A stretch of 64,000 nucleotides of DNA from Paracoccaceae bacterium (GTDB taxonomy: Bacteria; Pseudomonadota; Alphaproteobacteria; Rhodobacterales; Rhodobacteraceae). The position numbers and the translations under genes were made by a program. Of this stretch, positions 1 through 62,995 are shown piece after piece. The number at the start of each line of letters is the position of its first letter. Positions within the stretch are counted from its first letter, which is position 1. Under the pieces are notes generated by a model. That model was not told the origin of the DNA. It did not search any database and was given only the letters and a program-made list of their open reading frames with translations. The stretch lies in contig WLWX01000001.1 in assembly GCA_012103375.1 (NCBI GenBank), positions 3,514,492-3,578,491 of the forward strand, read 5' to 3'.

Positions 1-1495
1 GCTGATTCAATCCTCTCAACAAGCGGGAGGATCAGCCATGATGGGACCGAGGCAGGAAGCACAGGCGGCGCTGTTCTATGAGTTCTCGCTGGAAGACCAT
101 GTCCCGCAAGATCACCTGCTGCGATCGATTGATCGTTTCGTCGATCTGAGCAGCATCCGCGCCCATCTTGCCGATTTCTACAGCCACACCGGTCGTCCTT
201 CGATCGATCCTGAACTGCTGATCCGGATGCTGATCGTCGGTTACTGCTTCGGCATCCGGTCCGAGCGGCGGCTCTGTGAAGAGGTACACTTGAACCTCGC
301 GTACAGGTGGTTTTGTCGGCTCGACCTGGCCGATCGGGTGCCGGATCACTCGACCTTTTCAAAGAACCGGCATGGTCGGTTCCGCGAGAGTGAGCTGCTG
401 CGCCATCTCTTCGAGACCACGGTCGCGCGATGCATCGCCGAAGGTCTCGTCAGCGGTCAGCGCCTGGCCGTCGATGCCAGCTTGATCGAGGCGGATGCCA
501 ACAAGCAGTACTCTGCGCCAAAGGAAGAATGGGACATTGCGCGGATCGATGCAGACGCTGCACCCCGCGCGGTCCGCGAGTATCTCGACACTCTGGATGA
601 GGCCGCATTCGGAGCAGCGACACCGGTCGAGCCAAAGTTCACGTCCTATTCCGACCCAGCCAGCCAGTGGACGGCGGCGCGTAAGGGTCCCGCATTTTTT
701 GCCTACTCCGACAACTATCTCATCGATACCGATCATGGTGTCATCGTCGACGTGGAAGCGACACGGTCGATCCGTCAAGCCGAGGTGGGGTCAACCAAGA
801 CGATGCTGAAGCGGGCCAAAGAGCGCTTCGATCTTCATCCCGAACGGCTGATCGCCGACACCGCCTACGGATCGGGACCCATGCTCGGATGGCTGGTGGG
901 TGAAAAGATCGCACCGCACATCCCGGTCTTCGACAAAGCCGGGCGCACCGATGGCACCTGGTCCCGAGCTGACTTCGAATGGGATGCCGAGAACAATCAA
1001 TACATCTGCCCGGAAGGCGAGGCTCTGAAGCAGTTCCGCCGAAACTACTCCGACCCCAATCGCGGCCCAACCGGCAAGGGCGTGGCCAAGTACCAAGCGC
1101 TGAAGCACACCTGCCAATCCTGTCCTTCCAAGCCGAAGTGCTGCCCGAATGCCGACGCCCGTAAGATCACCCGTGAGGAACATGAGGACGCTCGCGACAT
1201 CGCCCGCGCAATCGCCAAAACGCCGCAATACAAGATCTCGGTGAAGCTCCGGAAGAAGGTCGAAATGCTCTTTGCCCACCTCAAGCGCATTCTCGGCCTG
1301 GGACGGCTCCGATTACGTGGACCATGCGGCGCAAATGACGAATTCCTGCTCGCCGCCACTGCCCAAAACCTTCGCAAACTGGCAAAGATCTTTCCTGCAC
1401 CGCAGCAAACGCGCAAAGCCTGATCAGAAAGGCGCTCGCGCTATGTTCAAATCGCTACTTTCTGCGCCCGCAACACGTTGTTTTTCCACAGAATC
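1..1495 (+). mobile_element. IS1182-type insertion sequence, right part (left end outside window)
   Basis: The window opens inside an insertion sequence. The only gene is the transposase at 38-1423. The right boundary is placed at 1495 because the sequence there ends in TTTTTCCACAGAATC, after which an unrelated oxidoreductase frame begins in mid-protein. The terminal 16 bases match the right end of the six MITEs in this window at 14 positions, and the next four bases (CGCC) match the target duplication of one MITE copy. The left terminal repeat and target duplication cannot be checked because they lie before position 1. Confidence 0.75.
38..1423 (+). CDS. IS1182 family transposase
   Basis: A 461-residue DDE-type transposase that would catalyse movement of the surrounding element. 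The N-terminal half has the DUF772-like helical region with 'PSIDPELLIRMLIVGYCFG'. It is followed by the catalytic core: first acidic residue in 'LAVDASLIEADA', second in 'LIADTAYGSG', and a C-terminal 'EMLFAHLKRILGL' carrying the final acidic residue. A Cys-rich stretch (CQSCPSKPKCCP) precedes the last block, as is usual in this family. The start ATG at 38 follows a GCGGGAGGA ribosome-binding site. The length is full for the family and no frameshift is seen, so the element may be active. Confidence 0.93.
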   Translation: MMGPRQEAQAALFYEFSLEDHVPQDHLLRSIDRFVDLSSIRAHLADFYSHTGRPSIDPELLIRMLIVGYCFGIRSERRLCEEVHLNLAYRWFCRLDLADRVPDHSTFSKNRHGRFRESELLRHLFETTVARCIAEGLVSGQRLAVDASLIEADANKQYSAPKEEWDIARIDADAAPRAVREYLDTLDEAAFGAATPVEPKFTSYSDPASQWTAARKGPAFFAYSDNYLIDTDHGVIVDVEATRSIRQAEVGSTKTMLKRAKERFDLHPERLIADTAYGSGPMLGWLVGEKIAPHIPVFDKAGRTDGTWSRADFEWDAENNQYICPEGEALKQFRRNYSDPNRGPTGKGVAKYQALKHTCQSCPSKPKCCPNADARKITREEHEDARDIARAIAKTPQYKISVKLRKKVEMLFAHLKRILGLGRLRLRGPCGANDEFLLAATAQNLRKLAKIFPAPQQTRKA

Positions 1496-2351
1496 CGCCC
1501 AAAAAGTGCAGTCGGCGCTGGGTGCCGGAACCAGATACATGACGCCGGACGACATCGCGCGGGAATATCCGTTTTATAATCTTCAGGGTATTCTTGGGGC
1601 CAACCACAATCTGATTGACGAAGGGTATTTCGACGGGAATACGCTGTTTGATTGGTGGAAACGCAAAGCGCGCGAAAACGGCGTCGAATATATCACGAAT
1701 GAAGTTGTCGGTATTACAAAAAACAAAGTCGGAGATCGCGTCGATTCGGTCACGCTGAAATCCGGAAACCGCATTTCCTGCGACACGCTGGTTAACGCAT
1801 CCGGACTGCGCGCCGCAATCACGGCGCGAATGGCCGGAATTGAAATTCCTGTGGAACCGCGTAAACGCTACACTTTCATATTCGACGCGGAAAACCCGCT
1901 TGACCGGGATTTGCCGCTGACAATTGATCCCTCCGGGGTGCACACAAGAAGCGATGGTCGGTTCTATCTGGCCGGATGCCCGCCGGATGAAGACCCGCCC
2001 GTCGAACCCGATGATTTCGAACAGGATTTTAATATCTGGGAGGATAAAGCCTGGCCCGCAATCGCCAACCGAATTCCACAGTTCGAGGCTATAAAACTCG
2101 TCAACTCCTGGGCGGGCCATTACGCATTCAACGTATTCGACCAAAACGCGATTCTGGGTCCGCATACTGAGGTTACGAATTTCATGTTCGTCAATGGTTT
2201 CTCAGGGCATGGGTTTCAGCAATCCCCTGCGATGGGTCGCGGCATGGCCGAACTTGTAATTCACGGCGAATTCCGAACCCTCGATCTGACACCATTCGGA
2301 TATGACCGTATCGCCCAGAACAAACCCTTCATTGAAAAGGCTGTGATATGA
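1496..2351 (+). pseudogene. FAD-dependent (DAO-type) oxidoreductase, 5' end removed by IS insertion
   Basis: C-terminal roughly 285 residues of a D-amino-acid-oxidase-family FAD enzyme. It retains the substrate/FAD part: a 'GILGANHNLIDEGYFDG' segment, a 'DTLVNASGLRA' FAD-contact motif, and the terminal 'NGFSGHGFQQSPAMGRGMAEL' signature typical of DAO proteins. The N-terminal Rossmann GxGxxG segment is missing because the upstream DNA is the insertion sequence ending at 1495. The frame stays open back into the element, so a long hybrid ORF from 1272 exists, but its first part is IS sequence. It overlaps the next gene by 4 bp, implying an original operon. The substrate is unknown. Confidence 0.8.
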
Positions 2352-21694: not shown

Positions 21695-22887
21695 TGGCCA
21701 AACCCTCGGTCTTTGTGACACGTCGCTGGCCGATTGTGTTGAAAAACTCCGTTTTAGGGCCTGAACGATGATTTTTCTTTCCATGCAGCCCGATCCTAAA
21801 TTTTTGGCGCGGGGGTCGGCCCAAATCGCCTACATGCGCTCACGCGCAGCCATGCGCTGTCTCGTGGTCAAAGCTTTCCGACTATTTCGCTTCATAGGTT
21901 TTCGCAAGAAATCCGCGACGCTCTGATTTCGGAGTTTTTCAACACAATCGGCCCAAAGCGGTCGAGGCGCAGCTGGCCTGCGAATTCGACACGGTGCTGA
22001 ACACCGGCGACACACCGCTGAACCCGGCAGAAATGCGCGAAGCGCTGAAATCCTTCGATGCGGTGCTGCCCACGGTCACCGACAGGCTTGGCCCGGAAAC
22101 GCTTGATGTGCCCAAGGCACGCGCCAGGATTCTGGGCAACTATGGTGTCGGATACAGCCACATCTGCGAACCCTCGGCGCAGCGGCTGGGGGTCACCGTC
22201 ACCAACACGCCCGATGTTCTGTCAGAATGCACTGCCGACATCGCCATGACGTTGCTGCTGATAGCTGCGCGCCGCGCCGGTGAAGGCGAACGCGAGGTTC
22301 GCGCCGGGCGCTGGACGGGTTGGCGGCCAACCCATCTGATCGGAACCCGTGTCAGCGGCAAGACTTTGGGCATCATCGGCTTTGGCCGCATTGGCCGCGA
22401 AATGGCCAGACGCGCGCACCATGGGTTCGGCATGAAGATCCTTGTGCAGAACCGCAGTCCGGTTGCGCCCGACCTGTTGGCCTACTGCGACGCCACACAG
22501 GTCGATACGGTCGATGACCTGTTGCCCCAATGCGATTTCGTCTCGCTCCACTGCCCCGGCGGCACGGCGAACCGGCATCTGATCGACGCGCGCAGGCTGG
22601 ATCTGATGCGGCCCGACGCTTTCCTGATCAACACCGCGCGCGGCGAGGTTATCGACGAATGCGCCCTTGCCCAGGCGCTGATGTTCGACACCATCGGCGG
22701 TGCGGGGCTGGATGTCTTCGAAGCCGAACCACGCATCGCGCCCGAGCTTTTGCAATGTGACAACCTCGTCCTGTTGCCCCATCTGGGCAGCGCAACACGC
22801 GAAGCCCGCGAGGCGATGGGATTTCGCGTGTTGGACAACCTGCGGGATTTCTTCGACGGGCGCGAACCGCGCGATCGCGTGATCTGA
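21694..22887 (+). pseudogene. hprA: hydroxypyruvate reductase / D-glycerate dehydrogenase, interrupted by MITE copy 1
   Basis: A D-isomer-specific 2-hydroxyacid dehydrogenase. The ATG at 21694 starts [13 protein letters not shown], then the frame is cut by a 218-bp MITE (21732-21949) and its GGCC duplication. Joining 21694-21731 to 21954-22887 gives a perfect 323-codon frame (...RRWPKAVEAQLACEF...). The remaining part shows the NAD motif 'GIIGFGRIG' and catalytic Arg ('NTARGEV'), Glu ('FEAEP') and His ('LPHLGSAT'). With the MITE in place, translation from the native start ends at a TGA inside the element. A GTG at 21994 could give a product lacking about 26 native residues. It originally completed the sga-mtkAB-hpr operon. 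Confidence 0.9.
21732..21949 (+). mobile_element. MITE copy 1 (in hydroxypyruvate reductase)
   Basis: A 218-bp non-autonomous element with perfect 20-bp terminal inverted repeats GATTGTGTTGAAAAACTCCG, flanked by the duplicated target GGCC (21728-21731 and 21950-21953). The forward orientation is defined by the repeat followed by TTTTAGGGCC. It carries no transposase; the longest internal frames are about 40 codons. Total insertion is 222 bp, a multiple of three, but the host frame meets a TGA inside it. Confidence 0.95.
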
Positions 22888-27505: not shown

Positions 27506-27723
27506 GATTGTGTTGAAAAACTCCGAAATCAGAGCGTCGCGGATTTCTTGCGAAAACCTATGAAGCGAAATAGTCGGAAAGCTTTGACCACGAGACAGCG
27601 CATGGCTGCGCGTGAGCGCATGTAGGCGATTTGGGCCGACCCCCGCGCCAAAAATTTAGGATCGGGCTGCATGGAAAGAAAAATCATCGTTCAGGCCCTA
27701 AAACGGAGTTTTTCAACACAATC
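27506..27723 (-). mobile_element. MITE copy 2 (in ATPase 3' part)
   Basis: Same 218-bp element in reverse orientation, target duplication GGCG (27502-27505 and 27724-27727). It separates the ATPase codons for '...DRSMER' from 'PIWAYEVKW...'. Confidence 0.95.
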
Positions 27724-27835: not shown

Positions 27836-28053
27836 GATTGTGTTGAAAAACTCCGTTTTAGGGCCTGAACGATGATTTTTCTTTCCATGCAGCCCGATCC
27901 TAAATTTTTGGCGCGGGGGTCGGCCCAAATCGCCTACATGCGCTCACGCGCAGCCATGCGCTGTCTCGTGGTCAAAGCTTTCCGACTATTTCGCTTCATA
28001 GGTTTTCGCAAGAAATCCGCGACGCTCTGATTTCGGAGTTTTTCAACACAATC
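27836..28053 (+). mobile_element. MITE copy 3 (in ATPase)
   Basis: Same 218-bp element, forward orientation, target duplication GGCT (27832-27835 and 28054-28057). It interrupts the ATPase frame between 'AETAIFS' and 'QWSHSDEIRT' and introduces a stop four codons later on the minus strand. Only 112 bp separate it from copy 2. Confidence 0.95.
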
Positions 28054-29034
28054 GGCTAAAAATAGCAGTTTCCGCCATACTTCCCATCTGTTCGTCATTC
28101 TGATCGAGTGGAGCAAATAGCGCGGCACGCATTGAAGGGTTTGTTAAATAAACTTTGAAGTTGCGCTCTCGTTGAAAAGTGCGTCCTGAATCATCAACTC
28201 GGCGAACTCGTGATATTAAAAAAGCCGCTTCAAGGTACTCTAAGTACTTCTTAATAGTGTTTTTTGCTATACCAGAACTATTCGATAAGCCTTCGAGGCT
28301 TATTTCTTGCCCCGAATGATACGCAATCTTCATGAAAAGCCTGTTTAGCTCAGGAATATCCTGAATCCCATAAAGGCTTGGCAAGTCTCTTAGCAGAACC
28401 TTATCAACAATGTCCCGGCCTAAATATCTTGGTGCATTCGCTTGTAACTCACTACTCAGTACAGCCTCTGGATATCCTCCGAAATTTAGGTAATCCAAAA
28501 AGTACTTATTGAGAATTTCGATTTGATCTGTTTCGTACCTTTTGGTTGTGCCGTGTGTCACTTCGTTGATGAGTTTTCGCTCCATATCGACAAAATCAAG
28601 AAATTCAGAGAATGTTAACGGCGGAAGATAGAATTCCGTAAACCGACCTGCGCCTGACTCTTGGCTTTTCAAGCGGAGAGCGGCGGCGGCTGATCCCGAG
28701 GCGATAAACCTAGTATTTGGGTATTTATCTGTGAGGACCTTTAGGTGCACCTCCCAATTTTTCAAATATTGAATCTCATCAAAAATTACAATCCGCCGAC
28801 CTTTCGGATCATGTTCAGAATTATCCTCGAACAGTGAAACCAATTCATCGAGGCGCATATCGCTGTACAAGGGTGTATCAATTGAACAGAAGAACACAGC
28901 GTCACTGGGAAAGCCGTCTTCGACTATCGAGTTGATCAGTTGCTTTAGTAGAACTGTTTTGCCTACTCGCCGTGGGCCCATCAATATGACACTACGATTC
29001 ACTGCCCAGTTTTCAACCAGTGCACGGAATGGCT

Positions 29035-29252
29035 GATTGTGTTGAAAAACTCCGAAATCAGAGCGTCGCGGATTTCTTGCGAAAACCTATGAAGCGAAAT
29101 AGTCGGAAAGCTTTGACCACGAGACAGCGCATGGCTGCGCGTGAGCGCATGTAGGCGATTTGGGCCGACCCCCGCGCCAAAAATTTAGGATCGGGCTGCA
29201 TGGAAAGAAAAATCATCGTTCAGGCCCTAAAACGGAGTTTTTCAACACAATC
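29035..29252 (-). mobile_element. MITE copy 4 (in ATPase 5' part)
   Basis: Same 218-bp element, reverse orientation, target duplication GGCT (29031-29034 and 29253-29256). It separates the ATPase N-terminal 'NKRRAYFE' from 'PFRALVENWAV'. Copies 3 and 4 are in opposite orientation and share the same target tetramer. Confidence 0.95.
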
Positions 29253-29515: not shown

Positions 29516-29733
29516 GATTGTGTTGAAAAACTCCGTTTTAGGGCCTGAACGATGATTTTTCTTTCCATGCAGCCCGATCCTAAATTTTTGGCGCGGGGGT
29601 CGGCCCAAATCGCCTACATGCGCTCACGCGCAGCCATGCGCTGTCTCGTGGTCAAAGCTTTCCGACTATTTCGCTTCATAGGTTTTCGCAAGAAATCCGC
29701 GACGCTCTGATTTCGGAGTTTTTCAACACAATC
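29516..29733 (+). mobile_element. MITE copy 5 (in arfB 3' end)
   Basis: Same 218-bp element, forward orientation, target duplication CGCC (29512-29515 and 29734-29737). It lies inside the arfB coding region on the opposite strand, replacing the native C-terminal 15 codons (native stop at 29470-29472) with element-encoded sequence. Confidence 0.95.
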
Positions 29734-30102
29734 CGCCTTCAGCCGCCGTTCCACCGATCCCTTCGTGGGCCGCGTCGGTCTGCGCTTCTTCGGCACCACC
29801 GTCGCCCGCTGCACCAGTTCCGCCAGCCGATCACGCGCGATCTCTCGGTTGCGGGCCTGGCTGCGAGTGTCCTGCACGAAGATCACCACCTCCCCGGCCT
29901 CCGTCCACTTCTGCCCCGCCAGTCGCCGCAGCCGCTTCTTCACCGGGTCCGGCAGGTTGGGTGAGCCGAGCGCGGAAAACCGCAGCTCCACCGCCGTCGA
30001 CACCTTGTTGACGTTCTGCCCACCGGGGCCGGAGGCGCGGACGAATTGCTCCGTCAGCTCCCACTCCTCTATCCCGATATTGTCGTTTACCCGCAGAACC
30101 AT
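29614..30102 (-). CDS. arfB: alternative ribosome-rescue factor ArfB, C-terminus replaced by MITE sequence
   Basis: A peptidyl-tRNA hydrolase related to class I release factors. It carries the GGQ motif in 'RASGPGGQNVNKVSTAVELRF' region at residues about 23-31. The present ORF is 162 residues: about 122 native residues followed by a roughly 40-residue tail read from the MITE (DCVEKLRNQSV...MAARERM). Without the MITE the frame would run ...RRLKAKKVRGEVKRG... to a stop at 29470, giving 136 residues, the usual ArfB size. The native basic tail is known in this family to sit in the empty mRNA channel. The new tail is also rich in Arg/Lys, so activity may or may not survive. Confidence 0.88.
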   Translation of the reverse strand: MVLRVNDNIGIEEWELTEQFVRASGPGGQNVNKVSTAVELRFSALGSPNLPDPVKKRLRRLAGQKWTEAGEVVIFVQDTRSQARNREIARDRLAELVQRATVVPKKRRPTRPTKGSVERRLKADCVEKLRNQSVADFLRKPMKRNSRKALTTRQRMAARERM

Positions 30103-62777: not shown

Positions 62778-62995
62778 GATTGTGTTGAAAAACTCCGTTT
62801 TAGGGCCTGAACGATGATTTTTCTTTCCATGCAGCCCGATCCTAAATTTTTGGCGCGGGGGTCGGCCCAAATCGCCTACATGCGCTCACGCGCAGCCATG
62901 CGCTGTCTCGTGGTCAAAGCTTTCCGACTATTTCGCTTCATAGGTTTTCGCAAGAAATCCGCGACGCTCTGATTTCGGAGTTTTTCAACACAATC
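62778..62995 (+). mobile_element. MITE copy 6 (between iolC and iolB-like gene)
   Basis: Same 218-bp element, forward orientation, target duplication AGCC (62774-62777 and 62996-62999). It sits exactly at the iolC stop codon and moves the GAGG ribosome-binding sequence (62767-62770), natively 8 bp from the next ATG, 230 bp upstream of it. Confidence 0.95.

Follow-up and report, generated by a model that had tools for sequence, protein, structure and literature searches.

The stretch of DNA analyzed here (the window, 64,000 nucleotides of a Paracoccaceae bacterium) begins inside an insertion sequence of the IS1182 family, here called IS-A, and carries six copies of a 218-bp repeat, here called the MITE. 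The IS-A copy fills positions 1 to 1495 of the plus strand and lacks only its first 40 bp. Recovery of the left end and target duplication of this IS, a check proposed in an earlier sequence-only reading of the window, was completed from the genome sequence and gave a 1535-bp element (G000:C1:3514452-3515986) flanked by CGCC on both sides. The right terminal repeat, reading inward GATTCTGTGGAAAAACAAC, lies at 1477 to 1495 on the minus strand; the right end GTTTTTCCACAGAATC and the following CGCC described in that reading are at 1480 to 1495 and 1496 to 1499 of the plus strand. As CGCC also stands immediately left of the element, just upstream and outside the window, it is a real 4-bp duplication. 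An intact transposase of 461 amino acids is encoded at 38 to 1423 (plus strand), with the Pfam domains DUF772, DDE_Tnp_1_6, and DDE_Tnp_1 and a score of 428 bits against NF033551, transpos_IS1182 (cutoff, 270), over positions 2 to 488 of 488. Transposase type, terminal inverted repeats common to its relatives, and a short target duplication all place IS-A in the IS1182 family. The genome has 24 full-length, near-identical copies plus fragments, and among 80 IS-A relatives in which the ends were scored, most had an xATTxTGTTGAAAAACTC-type left end and about 1535 bp between ends.

The six MITE copies of the window are identical, with perfect 20-bp terminal inverted repeats that read GTTTTTCAACACAATC at both ends (20-mer form, GATTGTGTTGAAAAACTCCG), and at 218 bp they have no room for a transposase gene. 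With plus orientation defined by the CTCCGTTTTAGGG arm coming first, they occupy 21732 to 21949 (copy 1, plus, target duplication GGCC), 27506 to 27723 (copy 2, minus, GGCG), 27836 to 28053 (copy 3, plus, GGCT), 29035 to 29252 (copy 4, minus, GGCT), 29516 to 29733 (copy 5, plus, CGCC), and 62778 to 62995 (copy 6, plus, AGCC). The earlier reading had noted that CGCC, the quartet at the window IS-A copy, is also the duplication of copy 5, and had counted 14 of 16 identical positions between the IS right end and the MITE ends; both statements hold. The two ends of IS-A are unequal, and the left (AATTTTGTTGAAAAACTCC, 17/19) is closer to the MITE end than the right, which that comparison had used (15/19). 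MITE-type ends with up to three mismatches number 13 in the window against 1.12 expected in shuffles, none of 100 of which reached 13. Copy 5 occupies the 3' end of a release-factor-like gene, a GGQ-containing open reading frame (29614 to 30102, minus strand), and supplies the codons for its C-terminal ~39 residues, which form a basic tail with RKALTTRQRMAARERM at its end. An ATPase-like open reading frame (28043 to 29002, minus strand) likewise ends inside copy 3, which lies at its 3' end.

Across the genome the 40-mer of the MITE left arm occurs 186 times. The copies read were identical, and the burst, which produced about 186 copies that are identical or nearly so, is therefore recent. An apparent run of plus-strand copies along the chromosome was an artifact of listing order, the totals being 102 versus 84, and a search of plasmid records with the MITE gave no match. 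The repeat has the properties of a MITE: it is short and bounded by terminal inverted repeats, it lacks a transposase gene, it occurs in many near-identical copies with target duplications, and it has a resident autonomous partner, IS-A, with matching ends (17/19 and 15/19), quartet, and extended target. Its interior is unrelated to IS-A or to the second IS1182-type element described below; the match to IS-A is limited to the terminal 14 to 16 bp, and derivation of the MITE from IS-A by internal deletion was rejected for that reason. A conserved RNA structure of the interior was also rejected, as consistent pairing was limited to the terminal repeats (covariation term, -0.6); a single MITE sequence folds well (z -4.3) because of its repeats. 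A match to the Rfam family bicoid_3 was far under the gathering score and was dismissed.

Target sites of the MITE, IS-A, and IS-B

Site statistics for the MITE rest on the 121 sites, of about 186, that were read with the exact 218-bp sequence. Exact 4-bp duplications were present at 98 of them, and 80 of these 98 had a GC core (GGCC at 28, AGCC at 15, CGCC at 11, GGCT at 9, and others), whereas the dinucleotide GC has a frequency of 0.108 in the window; about 18% of the exact duplications had no GC core. The same core was found at 18 of 21 IS-A sites, making the NGCN duplication common to the MITE and IS-A, and duplications of IS-A relatives in other genomes follow the rule too. Beyond the quartet, the MITE sites define a symmetric target of about 28 bp, with G at -10, C at -8, G at -6, T at -4, W at -3, T at -2, and the mirror image. 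When a matrix built on MITE flanks with the quartet left out was scored against a GC-core background, IS-A flanks reached an AUC of 0.97 (p 1e-11) and the MITE itself, by leave-one-out, an AUC of 0.96. Five IS-A flanks, from four copies, adjoin a MITE across one shared quartet, a further point in favor of IS-A as mobilizer.

The second IS1182-type element, IS-B, is 1516 bp long and about 65% identical to IS-A in DNA sequence, and 19 full copies were read. Its ends, GATACTGTTGAAAAAGTCC, match the MITE end at 16 of 19 positions and are about as MITE-like as those of IS-A, so end similarity alone cannot choose between the two. Duplications were exact at 16 of the 19 copies, with TCCG/CGGA preferred and a GC core at none of the 16, and the IS-B flanks fitted the MITE extended-target matrix partially (AUC, 0.89). 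Two MITEs lie inside IS-B copies with non-GC duplications (L311 and L312), one apparently of 5 bp. The IS inventory of the genome, confined to IS1182 types, contained no third intact type beyond IS-A and IS-B. A single degenerate third IS1182-type element was seen at G000:C1:2708144-2709378, with ends GATAGTGTTGAAAAAGTCC and TCCG flanks.

Mismatches at the junctions

Exact duplications flank 10 of the 21 full IS-A copies. In nine of the 21 the sole mismatch is at position 4, the base that adjoins the left end, and in no copy is the sole mismatch at position 1. Among relatives of IS-A in other genomes, 12 cases have the mismatch at position 4 only and 2 at position 1 only. The MITE, which has two left-type ends, shows mismatches at position 1 in 11 sites, at position 4 in 7, and at both in 2, with the GC core kept. 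No single junction-base mismatch was found in the 19 IS-B copies.

Empty sites, with the flanks joined, were sought in ten related genomes for some of the mismatched sites, and three were clean. A MITE flanked by TGCT and GGCT has the empty site TGCT in four related genomes, a MITE flanked by AGCC and CGCC has AGCC in three, and an IS-A copy flanked by GGCC and GGCA has GGCA in two. All three have contiguous flanks, with the odd base always next to the element, which excludes recombination between copies for those sites. The mismatch there fits a donor base retained beside the element; mutation at the junction is formally possible. Partial or weak orthologues were found at three further mismatched MITE sites (L210, L035, and L240) and three IS-A sites (L018, L004, and L010). 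Reading-frame continuity across the joined flanks did not discriminate between recombination and insertion.

Distribution of the MITE and of its ends

Among 397 genomes of the bacterial family searched for the exact 19-mer of the MITE end, 13 contained it. The 218-bp type, recognized by its terminal repeat and internal motif pattern, occurs in 12 genomes of 12 genera, with one to three copies each and 185 here. Ten elements picked by their ends alone align at 216 to 218 bp, with internal identity down to 41% (median, 49%), and their duplications mostly have a GC core. An internal block, GGGGTCGGCCAA (also written GGGGTCGGCC), is conserved in L084 to L100 at columns 80 to 92 of alignment A1 while the rest has diverged; of the internal columns, 18 are invariant, and eight of these fall within 11 positions (hypergeometric 4e-7, uncorrected for the choice of block). 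The lineage to which the MITE belongs is old and family-wide, with elements of 216 to 218 bp; it is present at one to three copies in 11 other genera and has burst in this genome. A second size class of 166 to 168 bp with the identical end type was seen in other genera (L085, L086, and L093). An IS1182 relative from another genus (L190, genome G006) starts with the exact MITE 20-mer.

Within the genome under study, the exact 19-mer occurs 374 times, and only once without the G that follows it in the MITE. That one occurrence is the left end of an IS-A copy (L005, G000:C1:3260623-3262165); the end of an inverted MITE stands 4 bp away, and together they read as a perfect palindrome. The copy was considered as parent of the MITE and rejected; the palindrome makes quasi-palindrome correction beside the neighboring MITE likelier, and its exact MITE end probably arose in that way. 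The genome-wide 19-mer search found no other element bounded on both sides by the exact MITE end. The earlier reading had named as fatal to its proposal a different full-length IS family with the exact MITE ends and internal sequence; no full-length element of another family with these ends was found in this genome.

Discussion

The 218-bp repeats are very probably non-autonomous elements that the IS1182-family transposase of IS-A mobilizes in trans. At the level of sequence, IS-A and the MITE have similar ends, a common quartet, a common extended target, and a common infidelity at the junction base. The sequence-only reading had pointed to an IS1182-family transposase as the mobilizer of the MITEs, a proposal now strengthened by a GC-core quartet that IS-B does not use, by the extended target, by the junction mismatches, and by the relative in another genus. 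Against IS-A stand its ends, which are not identical to those of the MITE (17/19 and 15/19), and the lack of internal similarity; the MITE is therefore not simply a shortened IS-A.

In the mechanism that we propose, the IS-A transposase would recognize GATTGTGTTGAAAAACTCC-type ends, of which the MITE has two, both like the left end of IS-A. Insertion would take place at a 2-fold symmetric target centered on NGCN, a 4-bp staggered cut would yield the target duplication, and one donor-side nucleotide would often be left at a left-type end. The IS-A protein itself would bind the MITE ends and cut them, and the odd junction base would come from the donor site by a cut of the 5' strand about one nucleotide outside the left-type end. 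Whether IS1182-type transposition generally carries one donor nucleotide beside the left-type end into the new site, the duplication then recording a junction heteroduplex that the MITE displays on both sides, is a matter on which we consider the chances about even.

The burst might instead have been driven by a transposase since lost, a parent or sister IS1182 element with exact MITE ends, with IS-A merely sharing the target rule of its family. The imperfect match of the ends and the unrelated interior favor such an element, other IS1182 elements do have near or exact MITE-like left ends (L190, 20/20; L167 and L168, 18/19), and GC-core duplications are the rule across IS-A relatives. However, the burst is recent, IS-A copies are near-identical, intact, and numerous, and IS-A sites match both the target and the junction signature of the MITE. 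We regard a lost driver as unlikely; most of the burst is presumably the work of IS-A and not of a lost sister.

A separate doubt concerns the mismatched duplications, which would say nothing about the enzyme if they had arisen by homologous recombination between copies. The many identical copies and the difference of quartets between sites speak for such exchange, but at each of the three mismatched sites that could be tested cleanly the flanks adjoin in related genomes and the odd base touches the element, and IS-A relatives of other genomes show the same excess at position 4 (12 versus 2), which makes recombination quite improbable as the source. IS-B as the main mobilizer is very improbable: it too is an IS1182 element with 19 full copies, MITE-like ends (16/19), a partial extended-target fit, and quartets that recur among MITE duplications (CGGA twice, CGGG twice, and CAAG), but none of its 16 exact duplications has a GC core, whereas 80 of 98 do in the MITE (Fisher 3e-7 on the first 10 IS-B copies alone), and it lacks the single junction-base mismatch of IS-A and the MITE. 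As a few MITE sites have IS-B-type quartets, IS-B may move some copies in a minor role beside IS-A.

IS1182-linked MITEs with 4-bp repeats are already known in this bacterial family. MITEPye1 of Paracoccus yeei, reported in 2024, is an intergenic, IS1182-related MITE of 159 bp with one to three copies per chromosome; its 18-bp terminal repeats are similar to those of ISPye18 (IS1182), it has 4-bp direct repeats, and mobilization in trans by an IS1182 transposase was proposed (PMC11578231). It resembles the present MITE in occurring at the same bacterial family level, in having no genes, and in its IS1182-like terminal repeats and 4-bp repeats, and, compared by its published description, it differs in length and number (159 bp and one to three copies versus 218 bp and about 186). 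Its length is close to that of the 166- to 168-bp class. A literature search, with subscription journals and ISfinder outside it, found no description of this MITE or its burst. IS-A is one member, 1535 bp long and with unequal ends, of a wider group of Rhodobacterales IS1182 sequences (L110 to L189, and ISPse1 of Paracoccus seriniphilus, an IS1182-family element with a 4-bp repeat [PMC3281130]), which it resembles in transposase, TGTTGAAAAACTC-type ends, 4-bp duplications, and use of the GC-core quartet. In contrast, IS1272 of Staphylococcus, also of the IS1182 family, replaces stem-loops without duplication (PMC5678879), a mode so different that the 4-bp GC-core duplication of IS-A is worth recording. 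The proposed carryover of a donor nucleotide loosely recalls the coupling bases of Tn916-type elements.

These findings describe a recent autonomous and non-autonomous pair within one genome, in which about 186 MITE copies make up about 1% of the chromosome and mobilization is directly testable. Sequence-level predictions for the poorly studied mechanism of IS1182 come from the signature at the junction base and from the symmetric extended target, and, if the carryover of a donor nucleotide is true, an excision intermediate with a 1-nucleotide flank would follow. Where end similarity alone is not enough, fingerprints of target and error can link a MITE to the transposase that moves it.
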